This document shows, in pieces, positions 35,940 to 40,569 of a stretch of 64,000 nt of DNA. The translations under genes and the position numbers were made by a program. Below the pieces are notes generated by a model, which did no database searches, was not told the origin of the DNA, and was given only the letters and a program-made list of their open reading frames with translations. Origin of the DNA: Acidobacteriota bacterium (GTDB taxonomy: Bacteria; Acidobacteriota; Terriglobia; Terriglobales; Acidobacteriaceae); NCBI GenBank assembly GCA_019351975.1, contig JABBOG010000009.1, forward strand, positions 1 through 64,000. Reading direction: 5' to 3'. Position 1 is the first letter of the stretch, and the number at the start of each line of letters is the position of its first letter.

Positions 35940-36065
35940 CCTCACGCGAGCATAAGGCGAAGCCGTCGCCGACGCAATCACCGCACGTTGAAAAACTCCA
36001 CCCCTGGCCAGGGTCTATAGTTGTTCTGCATCCTATCGATAGGTTCCACAGGAGCACCGTTCTTT

Positions 36066-37109
36066 ATGTTGAAGCGTATTCCCTTCACTTTGCTGGCTTT
36101 CTTGACGATCCCCATCGGCTCATTTGCCCAGCAGACACCACCTTCGGCACTGCACCCACGCCCAGGGCCTCCAGTCCGCACCATCGGCATCAATGTCGTC
36201 GTCACCTCGAAGTCCGGCGTTCCCGTAGCTGGTCTTCCCCAAAATGACTTCACCCTCATCGACGACAAAGAACAGCGCACCATCACGTCCTTCCATGAGT
36301 TCGACGGCTCCAAAGTCCCGGTTATCCTGCTGATTGATTCCGTCAATACCGATTTCAGTGTCGTCGCACAGGCCCGCATTGAAATGGACAAGTTCCTCCA
36401 CGCCAACGGCGGTCATCTCTCGCATCCCACGGCCCTCGCCGTCTTCACCGACGACGGCGTCGAACTGCAGGGCGGCTACAGCCAGGACGGCAACGCCCTC
36501 GCTGCTGCCCTCGACAAGTTCACCATCGGCCTGCGCTACATCACCCGCTCCACCGGCGTTGAAGGTGCCGGCGAACGCCTCAACGACTCCATGAAGGCGC
36601 TCAGGACCCTCACCGGCTATGAGGCAGCACGCCCCGGCCGCAAAATCATCCTCTGGGTCTCGCCCGGCTGGCCGCTGCTCTCCGGCCCAGACATCGACCT
36701 CTCGACCTCCCAGGAAAAGGGCATCTTCGACGAGATCACCTGGCTCTCCACCGAACTTCGCGACGCGCAAACCTCCATCTATGCCATCAACCCTCTCGGT
36801 GTCGATGAAAATCTTGCCCGCGTCTTCATGTATCAGGACTACCTGAAAGGCGTCACCAAGCCATCCGAGGCCAACTTTGCGAATATCTCGCTTCAGGTCC
36901 TCGCCACGGAGACCGGCGGCCTTGTCCTCAGCAGCAGCGACATCTCCGGCATCCTCAAACAATCCATGGATGACGCCGGGCCCTACTACCGGCTGACCTT
37001 TGAGCCCCCGCCGACCGAGCGCCGGGATGTCTACCACCGCCTCGACGTGAAATTATCACAGCGCGGACTCACCGCCTATACCAATACCGGGTACTACGAC
37101 CAGCCTTGA
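36066..37109 (+). CDS. Secreted VWFA-domain protein of the acidobacterial type
   Basis: The 347-residue protein begins with a signal peptide (MLKRIPFTLLAFLTIPIGSFA); AGGAG lies about 11 bases upstream. A short beta segment (VRTIGINVVVTSKSGVPVAGL, PQNDFTLIDDKEQR) leads into a von Willebrand A domain with the MIDAS-like VILLIDSVNTDFS, which keeps the first Asp and a Ser but lacks the canonical DxSxS spacing. RKIILWVSPGWPLLSG and ETGGLVLSSSDISGILKQ follow. This is the widespread acidobacterial VWFA-related family of secreted proteins with unknown role, perhaps adhesion or complex assembly. It is a single gene. Confidence 0.88.
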   Translation: MLKRIPFTLLAFLTIPIGSFAQQTPPSALHPRPGPPVRTIGINVVVTSKSGVPVAGLPQNDFTLIDDKEQRTITSFHEFDGSKVPVILLIDSVNTDFSVVAQARIEMDKFLHANGGHLSHPTALAVFTDDGVELQGGYSQDGNALAAALDKFTIGLRYITRSTGVEGAGERLNDSMKALRTLTGYEAARPGRKIILWVSPGWPLLSGPDIDLSTSQEKGIFDEITWLSTELRDAQTSIYAINPLGVDENLARVFMYQDYLKGVTKPSEANFANISLQVLATETGGLVLSSSDISGILKQSMDDAGPYYRLTFEPPPTERRDVYHRLDVKLSQRGLTAYTNTGYYDQP

Positions 37110-37360: not shown

Positions 37361-37615
37361 ATGAAGCGCATTTTGCCAGTGTTCGTTTCCATCGTTACCT
37401 GTGTCTGCCTCCTTCTGGCAACCGAGCGCCGCGCCATGGCTTATGTTGACCCCGGCTCAGGTCTTCTCGCGCTGCAATCCATCGCCTCCATGTTCGCGGC
37501 AGCAGCCTTCTTCCTCCGGCGGCGTATCATGGCTGTATTCAGCCGCAAAAAGCCGGTTACGAATACGCCATCGCCGGTAAGCCCGCGGAAGGAAGATTCT
37601 CGACACGCAGCATGA
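37361..37615 (+). CDS. Small membrane protein with YVDPGSG motif
   Basis: An 84-residue protein with a first hydrophobic segment (MKRILPVFVSIVTCVCLLLA), then ERRAMAYVDPGSGLLALQSIASMFAAAAFFL as a second hydrophobic stretch, followed by a strongly basic cytoplasmic tail (RRRIMAVFSRKKP). The AYVDPGSG motif recurs in tiny membrane proteins beside polysaccharide and membrane phosphatase/sulfatase-like genes in many phyla (from general knowledge, not searched). Its TGA overlaps the ATG of the next gene (ATGA), so the products are made together. Function unknown; perhaps a membrane partner of the two following proteins. Confidence 0.82.
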   Translation: MKRILPVFVSIVTCVCLLLATERRAMAYVDPGSGLLALQSIASMFAAAAFFLRRRIMAVFSRKKPVTNTPSPVSPRKEDSRHAA

Positions 37616-38997
37616 CACCAGCAACACCAATAGCTACCTTCCGCGATCCGGCTGGTTCTCTCTGCCTGGAGGGTGACTTTGCCATCCGCACCATCCATCC
37701 ACACTCCCGCGATGAGGTGCTCGACTTCCTCGCATCTCCCCTCTGCGCGCGCCTTCAAAGCAGCGGGGATATGGTCGCCACAACCATCGATGACACCCCC
37801 GCCGGCCTGACACTACTCCATCCCAGGATTCAGATACCCACCTACCCGTGGGAGTGGACGCCCTCCCAATGGCTCGCCGCCGCTGATCTGACCCTCACCC
37901 TCTGCGAACAAGCCCTCGCCGAAGGCTGGGTGCTCAAAGACGCGACCCCCCTCAACATCCTCTTCGTCGGCCCGCGCCCCATCCTTGTCGATGTACTCTC
38001 CTTCGAGCGCTGGAATCCAGCACCATCCACCTACGCTTCCCACATCTGGCTCGCCTACGCGCAGTACATCCGCACCTTCCTTCTACCGCTTCTCATGAAC
38101 CGCATGCTCAGTTGGCCGCTGGAGCTCTCCCTCTTCAAGCGCGACGGGTACGAGCCCTCCGAACTGTACAAGGCCCTGAGCATATCTCAGCGCCTCTCAC
38201 CCGCCGCCTTCTGGCCTGTCACTCTCCCCGCAAAGCTGGATAAAGCAGGCTCCGGCCCTCCCAGGCCTCCGATGCACAAGTCGCCCGACCTCGCGCTGCA
38301 TCTGCTCAAGCGCACCCTCTCCGGCCTCCGCAAGCGCACCCATCGCGCCATGCCGCAACACGTCGGCTCTGAATGGAATGACTACACCTCCACCCTCCAT
38401 CACTACACAGAGCAGGAGAGCGCACAAAAGCTCGCCTGGGTGCGGCAGATCCTCACCGACCTCACGCCCTCCCGCGTCCTCGACATCGGCGCCAACACCG
38501 GCGTCTTCAGCGCCCTTGCCGCATCCACCGGAGCCACCGTCATCGCCCTTGAACGCGACCCCTCCGCCGCCGAAAGCCTCTTTCGCATGAGCCGCAAGAG
38601 CAGCCTGCCCATTCAAACCATCCACGCCGACCTCGCCCGTCCCACCCCCTCCGTCGGCTGGAACAACCGCGAAACCAGCACCCTCCTGCATCGCCTCCAG
38701 GGCCACGCCGATCTCATACTGATGCTCGCCGTGATCCACCACCTCATCTTGATGGAACAGATTCCACTCCCTGCCATCATCGATCTCGTTCACAGCCTCA
38801 CATCGCGACACCTCGTCCTCGAGTGGGTTCCCGTCACCGATCCCATGTTCCAAAGCCTCATGCGCGGCCGCGACAGCCTGTATGGCGCACTTACTGAAAG
38901 CGATCTCCTCGCCGCCTGCCATGGCCGCTTCCGCACCTTGCAACGGCAGCCCCTGGACAACGGACGCGTCCTGTTCCTCTTCTCAAAAGAAAATTAG
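37612..38997 (+). CDS. Kinase-like N-terminal domain fused to a SAM-dependent methyltransferase (NoeA-like)
   Basis: A 461-residue cytoplasmic protein. Residues about 285-455 are a class I methyltransferase: motif I RVLDIGANTGVFSALAAS, acidic motif II VIALERDPSA, and LILMLAVIHHLILMEQ as motif IV/V. The N-terminal 220 residues are not methyltransferase-like. They contain LKDATPLNILF and PILVDVLSFER, with Asp110, Asn115 and Asp127 at the spacing of the catalytic and metal-binding residues of protein/small-molecule kinases (D-x4-N-x11-D). The His before the catalytic Asp is missing and I find no clear glycine loop or Lys, so it may be a pseudokinase. NoeA-like methyltransferases belong to nodulation or polysaccharide loci. 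Coupled to the previous gene by ATGA; 60 bases before the phosphatase gene. Confidence 0.85.
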   Translation: MTPATPIATFRDPAGSLCLEGDFAIRTIHPHSRDEVLDFLASPLCARLQSSGDMVATTIDDTPAGLTLLHPRIQIPTYPWEWTPSQWLAAADLTLTLCEQALAEGWVLKDATPLNILFVGPRPILVDVLSFERWNPAPSTYASHIWLAYAQYIRTFLLPLLMNRMLSWPLELSLFKRDGYEPSELYKALSISQRLSPAAFWPVTLPAKLDKAGSGPPRPPMHKSPDLALHLLKRTLSGLRKRTHRAMPQHVGSEWNDYTSTLHHYTEQESAQKLAWVRQILTDLTPSRVLDIGANTGVFSALAASTGATVIALERDPSAAESLFRMSRKSSLPIQTIHADLARPTPSVGWNNRETSTLLHRLQGHADLILMLAVIHHLILMEQIPLPAIIDLVHSLTSRHLVLEWVPVTDPMFQSLMRGRDSLYGALTESDLLAACHGRFRTLQRQPLDNGRVLFLFSKEN

Positions 38998-39057
38998 ACT
39001 AATGCAGTTGCCAACCGCGCGGACGCCCTGCGCCGCCCATCGCGTACAAAGGAACAG

Positions 39058-40569
39058 ATGCTCAAGAAGCTGAGCCAGTGCATCGGCCTTGCCTCCATCA
39101 TTCTCGTCATGCAATACGGCGACCTGCTGGGAGGCGGCTCCGACGTCCGCATGCACGTTCCCTTCGCCCTCGGAGGCATCGTCTTCGCCCAACTCGCGGA
39201 CATCTTCCTCCTCGGCCTTCTGCTCTTCGCCGTCCTCGCTCCACTCTCGCGCACGCGCCTCTATCCTGCTCTCCGCCTGCTTCTCGCCATCGCCATCCCT
39301 CCTTACCTCATCCAACGCATCCGCCCCGCAATTCCATTCCCCCTTTCAAATGCCGCCCTGCTGATCGTGTCCATCGTCTGGGCAGCCTTCGTCATCGCCC
39401 TTTTCGCACGTTCCTACCGCTCCTATCAAAGACTCCTCCGCCTTGGAGACTTCGTCGGCACCTTTTTTGCCATCTTCGCCTTCTGCACCGTCATTCAGCT
39501 GCTCTACACCACACGTTGGACGCCCGGCCCCCATCAGCGCACCGCGACCTGGGCTACAACCACCCAGCTCCCTCGCCAGCATTCCCTCGTCGTATGGATC
39601 GTCTTCGACGAACTCTCCTTCGACCAGATCTACGAACACCGCTATCCCGGCCTCAATCTCCCTAACTTCGACGCCTTGCGCAACCAAAGCACCCTCTTTA
39701 CCAACGCTCAGCCCATCGGCGACCGCACCGTCAAAGTGATTCCCTCGCTGCTCGGCGGCCGCATCATCAGCCACTACCGCTTCACCTTCGACAATCAGCT
39801 CAAAGTTCGCTACGCCGACACCCCCGGCGTCCACCCCTTCGCCGGCCCCCAGACCATCTTCGCCGACGCGCAGACGCAAGGCTGGCGCACCGCCGCCGTC
39901 GGCTGGTACAACCCCTACTGCACCATCTACGCCTCAGCCATCGACGACTGCTACTGGATGAACCTCGACAAATTCGACGCTCCCATGGCACAGGACGCCA
40001 CCGCCGCCAACAACATCCTGCTCCCCCTCAAAGTCACCGCCGAAGAGCTCGTCCAGCCCAGCAAAGCACGCGACTTCCTCTGCACCTTTGACGTTCGCCA
40101 ACGCTACAAAACCTACATCGACCTCGAACAGTACACAGCGCAGCTACTCAAAAACGACCAGGCCGATTTCGTCTTCCTCCACCTGCCCATCCCGCACAGC
40201 CCCAACATCTGGGACCGCAAAACCAACAGCTTCACCCGCAAGTGCGGCAGCTCCTACGTCGATAACCTCGCCCTCACAGACCGCGAACTGGGCAAGATCA
40301 TGCGTACCCTCCAAAGCTCTCCGCGCTGGAAAGATACCACCCTCATCGTCGAAGGCGACCACTCCTGGCGCACCTATCTCTGGGAGAATCAGCCCTCATG
40401 GACTGACGAAGATGAAGTGGCCTCACACGATGACTTCGATCCCCGCCCTGCGATGATCATCCATCAGGCCGGCCAGACCACGCCGCAGATAAACGCCACA
40501 GCGTGGTCCATCCTCAACCTGCACACGGTCCTCGAACACATCATCCACGGCCAGACCATCCACCTCTAA
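39058..40569 (+). CDS. Membrane-anchored alkaline-phosphatase-superfamily protein (sulfatase / phosphoglycerol-transferase-like)
   Basis: A 503-residue protein: about four or five N-terminal membrane helices (to residue about 150), then an extracytoplasmic catalytic domain. The first metal/nucleophile region reads VVWIVFDELSFDQIYEHRYP (Asp184), with His380 in HLPIPHSPNIWDR and the late metal site EGDHSW (Asp434, His435). The nucleophile Thr/Ser is not obvious, and no sulfatase C/S-x-P-x-R motif is present. This fold transfers or removes phosphoglycerol, phosphoethanolamine or sulfate on envelope glycans. AAGGA precedes the ATG. It is the last gene of the operon starting at 37361 and converges with the TonB receptor gene six bases on. 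Confidence 0.86.
   Translation: MLKKLSQCIGLASIILVMQYGDLLGGGSDVRMHVPFALGGIVFAQLADIFLLGLLLFAVLAPLSRTRLYPALRLLLAIAIPPYLIQRIRPAIPFPLSNAALLIVSIVWAAFVIALFARSYRSYQRLLRLGDFVGTFFAIFAFCTVIQLLYTTRWTPGPHQRTATWATTTQLPRQHSLVVWIVFDELSFDQIYEHRYPGLNLPNFDALRNQSTLFTNAQPIGDRTVKVIPSLLGGRIISHYRFTFDNQLKVRYADTPGVHPFAGPQTIFADAQTQGWRTAAVGWYNPYCTIYASAIDDCYWMNLDKFDAPMAQDATAANNILLPLKVTAEELVQPSKARDFLCTFDVRQRYKTYIDLEQYTAQLLKNDQADFVFLHLPIPHSPNIWDRKTNSFTRKCGSSYVDNLALTDRELGKIMRTLQSSPRWKDTTLIVEGDHSWRTYLWENQPSWTDEDEVASHDDFDPRPAMIIHQAGQTTPQINATAWSILNLHTVLEHIIHGQTIHL

Follow-up and report, generated by a model that had tools for sequence, protein, structure and literature searches.

The rhizobial noeA/noeB operon serves Medicago host range (PMC4053727, PMC9048898), and modification of the Nod factor by its products is no more than a hypothesis (PMC9048898); a noeA orthologue has been reported in a non-symbiont (PMC3899959). 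For a Legionella homologue of NoeA, PMC9758233 assigns kinase-like catalytic positions and calls the protein functionally uncharacterised, and it finds two NoeA neighbours conserved in 65% and 38% of 816 neighbourhoods. In E. coli O9a, WbdD phosphorylates the end of the glycan and then methylates that phosphate (PMC3482155), and K. pneumoniae O7 ORF6, a second methyltransferase-kinase whose kinase is quite different from that of WbdD, yields a terminal methylphosphate (PMC11231755). We analyzed three adjoining genes in a 64,000-nucleotide stretch of an Acidobacteriota genome (assembly GCA_019351975.1, contig JABBOG010000009.1, positions 1 to 64,000; hereafter the window) that encode a YVDPGSG microprotein, a NoeA homologue and, at the position of noeB, a membrane protein of the alkaline phosphatase superfamily. 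The trio is a widespread, biochemically unstudied set related to the rhizobial nodulation genes noeA and noeB, and we read it, with a probability of roughly 55%, as a NoeA-type envelope-decoration operon that may place methyl phosphate on an exported glycan or lipid. The NoeA family, its conserved neighbourhood (PMC9758233) and the noeA/noeB genes were already known; the microprotein family, its co-occurrence with NoeA and the match of NoeA to the WbdD active site are new.

In the nod box n5 operon of S. meliloti plasmid pSymA, the order is nodL, a hypothetical open reading frame (ORF) of 71 amino acids (aa), noeA and noeB. The unnamed ORF between nodL and noeA (L136:7763-7978) carries AHA before YLDPGTG, and a profile from whose training set rhizobial members were left out recognises it (E 1.8e-8). 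Its protein matched 61 rhizobial plasmids, equal to the count of rhizobial records matching NoeA, and the 40 matches listed either call it hypothetical or give it no annotation. An earlier note on this DNA, made from the letters of the sequence, knew of no set with these three parts; that claim falls, as the three genes also follow nodL in S. meliloti and conservation of NoeA neighbours is on record in PMC9758233.

Linkage and co-occurrence of the three genes

We confirmed the three ORFs and their coordinates (Table 1). Genes 1 and 2 share a 4-base ATGA overlap and genes 2 and 3 are spaced by 60 bases, the tight linkage that had been proposed, and they are not chance ORFs. Gene 1 has a ratio of nonsynonymous to synonymous substitution rates (dN/dS) of 0.11-0.18 against six relatives, indicating purifying selection. 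In the window's genus, NoeA was present in 18 of 28 genomes, its own included, and genes 1 and 3 adjoin it in all 18 (in one of these, a contig end cuts gene 3 to 18 residues).

A contig scan returned 106 stretches encoding a relative. The best 80 were kept and three plasmid loci added, giving 83 loci chosen mostly by similarity to the window NoeA. The 80 scanned loci are mostly from Acidobacteriota, with Geobacter-type, Alphaproteobacteria, Verrucomicrobia, Gemmatimonadetes, Elusimicrobia and Rokubacteria records as well; the nearest named relatives are in Granulicella. A microprotein profile match lies near NoeA in 80 loci. Rather than being rarely together, the outcome that the earlier note had named as adverse, all three genes are adjacent as expected in 67 of these mostly NoeA-selected 83 loci by a simple scan, which leans on basic ORF calling (an over-long ORF made L097 count as a locus without NoeB) and includes three loci that stop at or just past NoeA (L062, L101, L128). 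The three loci without a microprotein near NoeA (L081, L110, L128) belong to genomes that carry one elsewhere (E 3e-17 or better); in G558 (L081) and G560 (L128), it adjoins a NoeB-type gene away from NoeA, that of G560 being in pieces. NoeB was not found near NoeA in L081, L086, L092, L114, L117, L121, L124, L122 and L128, and in all but one of these nine genomes a strong NoeB match lies at another place (in L128 it is in pieces); the NoeB of the L124 genome may go with that genome's second NoeA locus, L108. The L122 genome has a weak NoeB match only (E 1.5e-4), yet a Sulfatase-family gene directly follows its NoeA.

We also searched a less biased sample of 197 Acidobacteriota genomes, evenly drawn with a 90% completeness filter, at E<=1e-20 for NoeA and NoeB and E<=0.001 for the microprotein profile. 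NoeA was found in 38 genomes. The microprotein profile matched 45, of which 38 are exactly the NoeA genomes and the other seven have a long, different protein; the short microprotein was present in 38/38 genomes with NoeA and in 0/159 without it. NoeB was found in 14 genomes, 13 of them with NoeA, and in the other (G205) it lies at a contig start, the assembly being broken into about 800 contigs. Fisher p values for association with NoeA were 1.5e-41 for the microprotein and 9e-10 for NoeB, uncorrected for relatedness. More telling than these p values is the retention of all genes when they are dispersed: in G141, G196 and G204 the genes for NoeA, microprotein and NoeB are all present but lie far from one another, and G149 and G086 have the microprotein with NoeB and NoeA apart. 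In a related genus, six sampled genomes have all three genes and five have none.

Among 299 Pseudomonadota genomes, NoeA was found in five, one of which (the centre, G253) had been chosen for having the trio. The microprotein (E<=1e-7) is present in all five, as is a NoeB-type gene next to NoeA; two show the gene order microprotein-NoeB-NoeA. The microprotein reached E<=1e-7 in one of the 294 genomes without NoeA, G360, which has a NoeB-type gene and in which no NoeA was found. At E<=0.001 the profile matched 14 of the 299: the five NoeA genomes, G360 and eight weaker cases. Linkage and co-occurrence support the three genes as a functional unit, in agreement with the proposal that they act together.

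NoeA and the active site of WbdD

By sequence comparison, gene 2 is a full-length NoeA: it has 26% identity to S. meliloti NoeA over residues 3-459 (E 3e-36; BLASTP E 1e-44), and the S. meliloti protein matches a held-out profile at E 3e-98. Its AlphaFold2 model has a mean predicted local distance difference test score (pLDDT) of 92.8. The gene had been described as a kinase-like/methyltransferase fusion, and the methyltransferase half holds, with one methyltransferase family above the Pfam cut-off (PF13489, 5.1e-7). The 50 matches listed for the whole model in the structure search are methyltransferases. The N-terminal half is a putative kinase on the basis of published analysis and conserved residues: R26, D110, N115 and D127 are invariant in 40 aligned sequences, with roles, including R26 as the Arg replacing the ATP-binding Lys, taken from the Legionella homologue in PMC9758233 and mapped by eye. 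In a HMMER alignment of -2.3 bits, without significance, D351, N356 and D369 of WbdD fall on D110, N115 and D127.

WbdD is the top PDB chain for the NoeA profile (E 1.4e-6), ranks 1, 3, 6 and 12 in a Foldseek search with the NoeA model, and aligns with the methyltransferase domain at an hhalign probability of 98.3. H132, H133 and R203 of WbdD align with H376, H377 and R452 of NoeA in both MAFFT and global hhalign alignments, and these residues are invariant in 56 sequences and also in 33 drawn more widely, S. meliloti NoeA among them (some sequences are shared). WbdD proteins mutated at H132, H133 or R203 still phosphorylate, with no methylation seen (PMC3482155). The fold matches also include the methylphosphate capping enzyme (6dcc, Z 16.8) and BCDIN3D (6l8u, Z 16.4). 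Phosphorylation plus methylation is the best-supported chemistry because NoeA matches WbdD, a phosphate-methylating kinase-methyltransferase, at catalytic residues; the chemistry of the decoration that the earlier note had proposed is thereby supported. We found no statement of the WbdD active-site match in the open-licence literature searched. In section 8 of PMC9758233, a figure sets the domain layout of WbdD beside that of Lani_1194, and the text treats WbdD under another family.

The microprotein family

The window microprotein has no Pfam match, none of the Pfam and NCBIfam families hits more than a single protein among 45 members, and no paper was found in the open-licence literature for YVDPGSG-type motif strings; the family is undescribed in the two family libraries searched. 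In an 80-member set the motif reads Y-x-D-P-G-[STN]-[GSA], and the three residues preceding it are A-x-A or A-x-G in 66, with A or G as the final residue in 77. A-x-A/G before the cleavage point is the pattern of a signal peptidase I site. Window gene 1 has the build by which we define the family, namely the invariant Y-x-D-P-G, a Q five residues after the motif and a signal-like N-terminus. In two members (L109, L120) only 5 residues separate the start from the motif and a stop codon lies shortly upstream, within a few codons, so the first hydrophobic segment is dispensable. Because of this and the signal-peptidase-like pattern, the mature microprotein is predicted to have an outward Tyr N-terminus, one helix and a basic tail inside; this fits better than the two-helix membrane partner proposed earlier. 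Within the genome that the window comes from, the profile matches only the window gene. At L121:11603-12136, located after NoeA, the module is lengthened by more hydrophobic sequence.

The seven extra Acidobacteriota profile matches, and one more in a NoeA genome, are different long proteins with open frames of about 700 residues. All eight (L230, L231, L235-L240) have a signal-like N-terminus, AY[VAI]GPGAGF and a helix; in the one submitted to Pfam, a Phosphodiest domain (alkaline phosphatase superfamily, E 2.4e-30) follows. Five regions were read for the eight weaker Pseudomonadota matches, yielding four free YxGPGAG microproteins (L265, L267, L268, L269) and one non-member. An arylsulfotransferase gene adjoins three of the four and is nearby in L269. 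Among the remaining three weaker matches, G367 has AYIGPGLG and two are without the motif. Since YxGPGAG proteins are fused to or beside envelope enzymes, a small exported module recurs with such enzymes.

The gene at the NoeB position

Gene 3 sits directly after noeA, as noeB does in S. meliloti. Pfam assigned Sulfatase (PF00884, 6.2e-16) and Phosphodiest, and the AlphaFold2 model (mean pLDDT 95.1) has N-terminal membrane helices followed by an alkaline-phosphatase-superfamily domain, confirming the proposal of a membrane enzyme of the phosphoglycerol/sulfate-transfer fold. D184, P229, H375, H380, D434 and H435 are invariant in 52 sequences. The active-site motif of formylglycine-type sulfatases is C/S-x-P-x-R, which gene 3 is without; T224 lies in the context T-V-K-V-I-P-S, and such a Thr arrangement belongs to Thr-type phospho-transferases/phosphodiesterases rather than formylglycine sulfatases. 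A formylglycine sulfatase was ruled out by the Thr at the nucleophile position (51 of 52 sequences, Ser in one). The many sulfatase fold matches of gene 3 show the superfamily only, and its matches include PbgA and a lipoteichoic acid primase.

The window's genome has a second NoeB paralogue on contig 66 (34176-35669; L272:5674-7332), flanked by ORFs that by eye are MFS transporter-like and ddl-like. A tandem pair of NoeB-type genes follows NoeA at L079:11383-14685. In L056 and L076 the NoeB gene is split over two frames, perhaps through assembly error or decay; L076 also has undetermined bases.

Features and surroundings of the locus

Table 1. Features of the three-gene locus, in window coordinates
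Feature	Position	Strand	Basis or remark
Microprotein gene (gene 1), 84 aa, YVDPGSG family	37361..37615	+	ORF; purifying selection; profile match in 80/83 related loci
Predicted signal peptide, aa 1-27, A-M-A before Tyr28	37361..37441	+	Hydrophobic segment aa 4-22
YVDPGSG motif, aa 28-34, predicted outward N-terminus of mature protein	37442..37462	+	Y, D, P and G kept without exception in an alignment of 45 members
Predicted single membrane helix of mature microprotein, aa 34-52, then basic tail	37460..37516	+	Prediction
NoeA homologue (gene 2), 461 aa: kinase-like N-terminal domain, class I methyltransferase C-terminal	37612..38997	+	
NoeA putative kinase catalytic loop and metal-binding Asp: K109, D110, N115, D127	37936..37992	+	Conserved residues
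NoeA methyltransferase domain, aa 250-461	38359..38994	+	Best PDB sequence match WbdD, E 1.4e-6
NoeA H376-H377, equivalents of WbdD phosphate-site H132-H133	38737..38742	+	Alignment; invariant in 56
NoeA R452, equivalent of WbdD R203	38965..38967	+	Alignment; invariant in 56
NoeB-position gene (gene 3), 503 aa: N-terminal membrane domain and alkaline-phosphatase-superfamily domain	39058..40569	+	
Gene 3 membrane domain, aa 1-151, modelled helices	39058..39510	+	Three segments above simple hydropathy cut-off
Gene 3 sulfatase/phosphatase-fold catalytic domain, aa 174-503	39577..40566	+	VIA-align Z 22-24 to sulfatases
Gene 3 T224, predicted nucleophile	39727..39729	+	Thr 51/52, Ser 1/52

Just upstream of the trio, on the same strand, lies an acidobacterial VWA-domain protein (TIGR03436, window 36021-37109), and the ORF downstream is receptor-like by eye. 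When the neighbouring ORFs of the 83 loci were clustered, NoeA recurred in 81 loci and NoeB in 68, and nothing else in more than 11; a conserved glycan cluster around the trio was ruled out on this basis. The earlier note had suggested looking for nearby glycosyltransferases, and the outcome is mixed: glycosyltransferase group 1 matched 7 of 101 neighbouring ORFs from 33 loci, two of the matches sharing one locus (L131), a count made with no control loci and from which no enrichment is claimed. The scanned neighbours are greedy longest ORFs, some of them maybe spurious, and 12 of 113 listed were left out by hand. In L264, the trio lies between PEP mutase/AMP-binding genes and Polysacc_synt_2 (sugar dehydratase)/DegT aminotransferase genes, a sugar-decoration setting. 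A NodU/CmcI-type carbamoyltransferase gene (Carbam_trans_N, _C) is located just upstream of NoeA at L128:4554-6386.

Proposed function and alternatives

Linkage, co-occurrence, catalytic residues and folds were computed; the acceptor, the product, the order of steps, the chemistry of gene 3 and the role of the microprotein are inferred. NoeA, in the cytoplasm, would use ATP to transfer phosphate onto a hydroxyl of a glycan or glycolipid under construction for export, and its second domain would then use S-adenosylmethionine to methylate the new phosphate, giving a methyl phosphodiester as WbdD does on the O9a O-antigen. A glycan or glycolipid is the presumed acceptor because of WbdD, the nod box n5 setting and the occasional glycan neighbours. 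The microprotein would be exported, and cleavage of its signal peptide after A-x-A/G would leave Tyr-x-Asp-Pro-Gly-Ser-Gly at the outer face, with the helix in the membrane and the basic tail in the cytoplasm. The microprotein may anchor NoeA at the membrane or link it with the NoeB-type enzyme. The product of gene 3 would act at the outer face, using its threonine nucleophile and metals on a phosphodiester or other phosphoester. Both this outer-face role and the coupling by the microprotein are plausible.

A fuller, two-sided pathway is possible, and we put it forward only tentatively. NoeA would make the methyl phosphodiester inside, the NoeB-type enzyme, which has relatives that attack phosphodiesters through a threonine nucleophile, would move or trim the group outside, and the microprotein would couple the two sides as a reused docking module, its free Tyr-x-Asp-Pro-Gly end facing the enzyme; the module would be the one reused with phosphodiesterases (fused) and arylsulfotransferases (beside). 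If true, this would explain what noeA and noeB do biochemically, so far unsolved, and would add an overlooked gene to the nod box n5 operon.

Several results weigh against methyl-phosphate decoration by the trio. The kinase-like module of the window NoeA has no Pfam match of its own, and among 40 relatives of the kinase half, Pfam found APH in one (0.019), RIO1 in one (0.076) and no consistent family. The kinase-domain profile matched no PDB chain up to E 10, and hhalign of the domain with WbdD was not significant (E 0.29). Gene 3 has, on its sequence, only a distant resemblance to NoeB of S. meliloti (24% over 122 aa, E 1e-8; hhalign probability 86), which matches the held-out profile at E 5.5e-4. 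No glycan family is widely recurrent around the trio in the 83 loci. Of 28 more NoeA regions, drawn from the phylum sample and G057, 12 have a NoeB-like gene next to NoeA and 16 do not, one of the 16 lying at a contig end; taken with the co-occurrence counts, this makes the microprotein and NoeA the constant pair and NoeB the usual third. The methyltransferase comparison has weak points of its own. Y16, also needed in WbdD, is opposite a gap in the NoeA alignment; many methyltransferases equal WbdD in structure Z (16-17.6); and His-His at this place is also found in other methyltransferases, NodS and RebM having two His or two Tyr there (PMC3482155). Two of these points, the unmatched Y16 and the ties in structure Z, which extend over various sorts of class I methyltransferase and include NodS, a rhizobial N-methyltransferase (Z 17.3), would suit an explanation in which NoeA decorates and the methyl lands on a sugar, lipid or carboxylate instead of the new phosphate, leaving two separate marks. 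WbdD is nevertheless the best PDB sequence match of NoeA, and we regard two separate marks as unlikely, if still a serious rival to methylation of the phosphate.

The NoeB-position enzyme might instead be the real effector, as a phosphoglycerol/phosphoethanolamine transferase or a phosphodiesterase acting on lipid or glycan, with NoeA and the microprotein regulating or priming it and the kinase-like domain perhaps a weakly catalytic or non-catalytic binding module. The microprotein lies beside a NoeB-type gene with NoeA elsewhere in G149, G086, G558 and G560, all 8 long weak matches have a YxGPGAG module ahead of a phosphatase-superfamily domain (Pfam having been run on one), and the Thr nucleophile is retained in 51 of 52 sequences. 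NoeA and the microprotein are, however, common without an adjacent NoeB, and the catalytic residues of NoeA are invariant; we regard this arrangement as quite improbable. That three unrelated envelope genes were simply held together by descent in one genus is hardly credible: the genes flanking the trio in the window do look unrelated, with the VWA protein upstream and the receptor-like ORF downstream, but the same association recurs in Pseudomonadota, on pSymA and in other phyla, and the idea is contradicted by the co-retention of dispersed genes and by the related genus with all three genes (6 genomes) or none (5).

With methyl-phosphate decoration preferred, the reading of NoeA is now testable as a specific reaction, phosphorylation followed by methylation of the phosphate, with named residues. 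The system gains a third component that is present in S. meliloti and unnamed in the records listed. Many soil bacteria outside rhizobia keep the genes, and the activity is therefore unlikely to be specific to the Nod factor; a Medicago host-range role is unlikely in Granulicella-type bacteria. More broadly, YxDPG/YxGPG microproteins may mark a general coupling of small membrane proteins to envelope enzymes.

Comparison with known systems

LtaS and EptA are class examples of membrane enzymes of the alkaline phosphatase superfamily. Gene 3 resembles LtaS/EptA/PbgA-type enzymes in joining N-terminal membrane helices to a Sulfatase-fold domain, and differs from them in having no close subfamily match and its own pattern of H375-x4-H380 and D434-H435. 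NoeA is like WbdD of E. coli O9a/K. pneumoniae O3 in carrying a kinase-like domain and a methyltransferase on one chain and in matching H132, H133 and R203. Unlike WbdD (708 aa in E. coli HS), which has the order methyltransferase-kinase-coiled coil, NoeA has the kinase-like domain first and the methyltransferase last, is without the coiled coil, and has a kinase domain with no detectable similarity to that of WbdD beyond the catalytic loop; Wzm-Wzt genes do not adjoin the window trio. The N-terminal half of K. pneumoniae O7 ORF6 is like NoeA by description only, as a methyltransferase-kinase, and in ORF6 a coiled coil and glycosyltransferases follow. As ORF6 yields methylphosphate with a different kinase, the pairing of a kinase with a methyltransferase has precedent.

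Legionella anisa Lani_1193/1194/1195 (PMC9758233) is like the window in having a NoeA-type kinase-methyltransferase with an alkaline-phosphatase-fold neighbour; PMC9758233 takes the Legionella set as possible effectors or envelope modifiers, and its section 8 does not propose methyl phosphate for them. The window differs from S. meliloti nod box n5 in that nodL does not adjoin the trio and gene 3 is distant from NoeB, and it shares with that operon the order microprotein-NoeA-NoeB, overlapping starts and full-length NoeA similarity.

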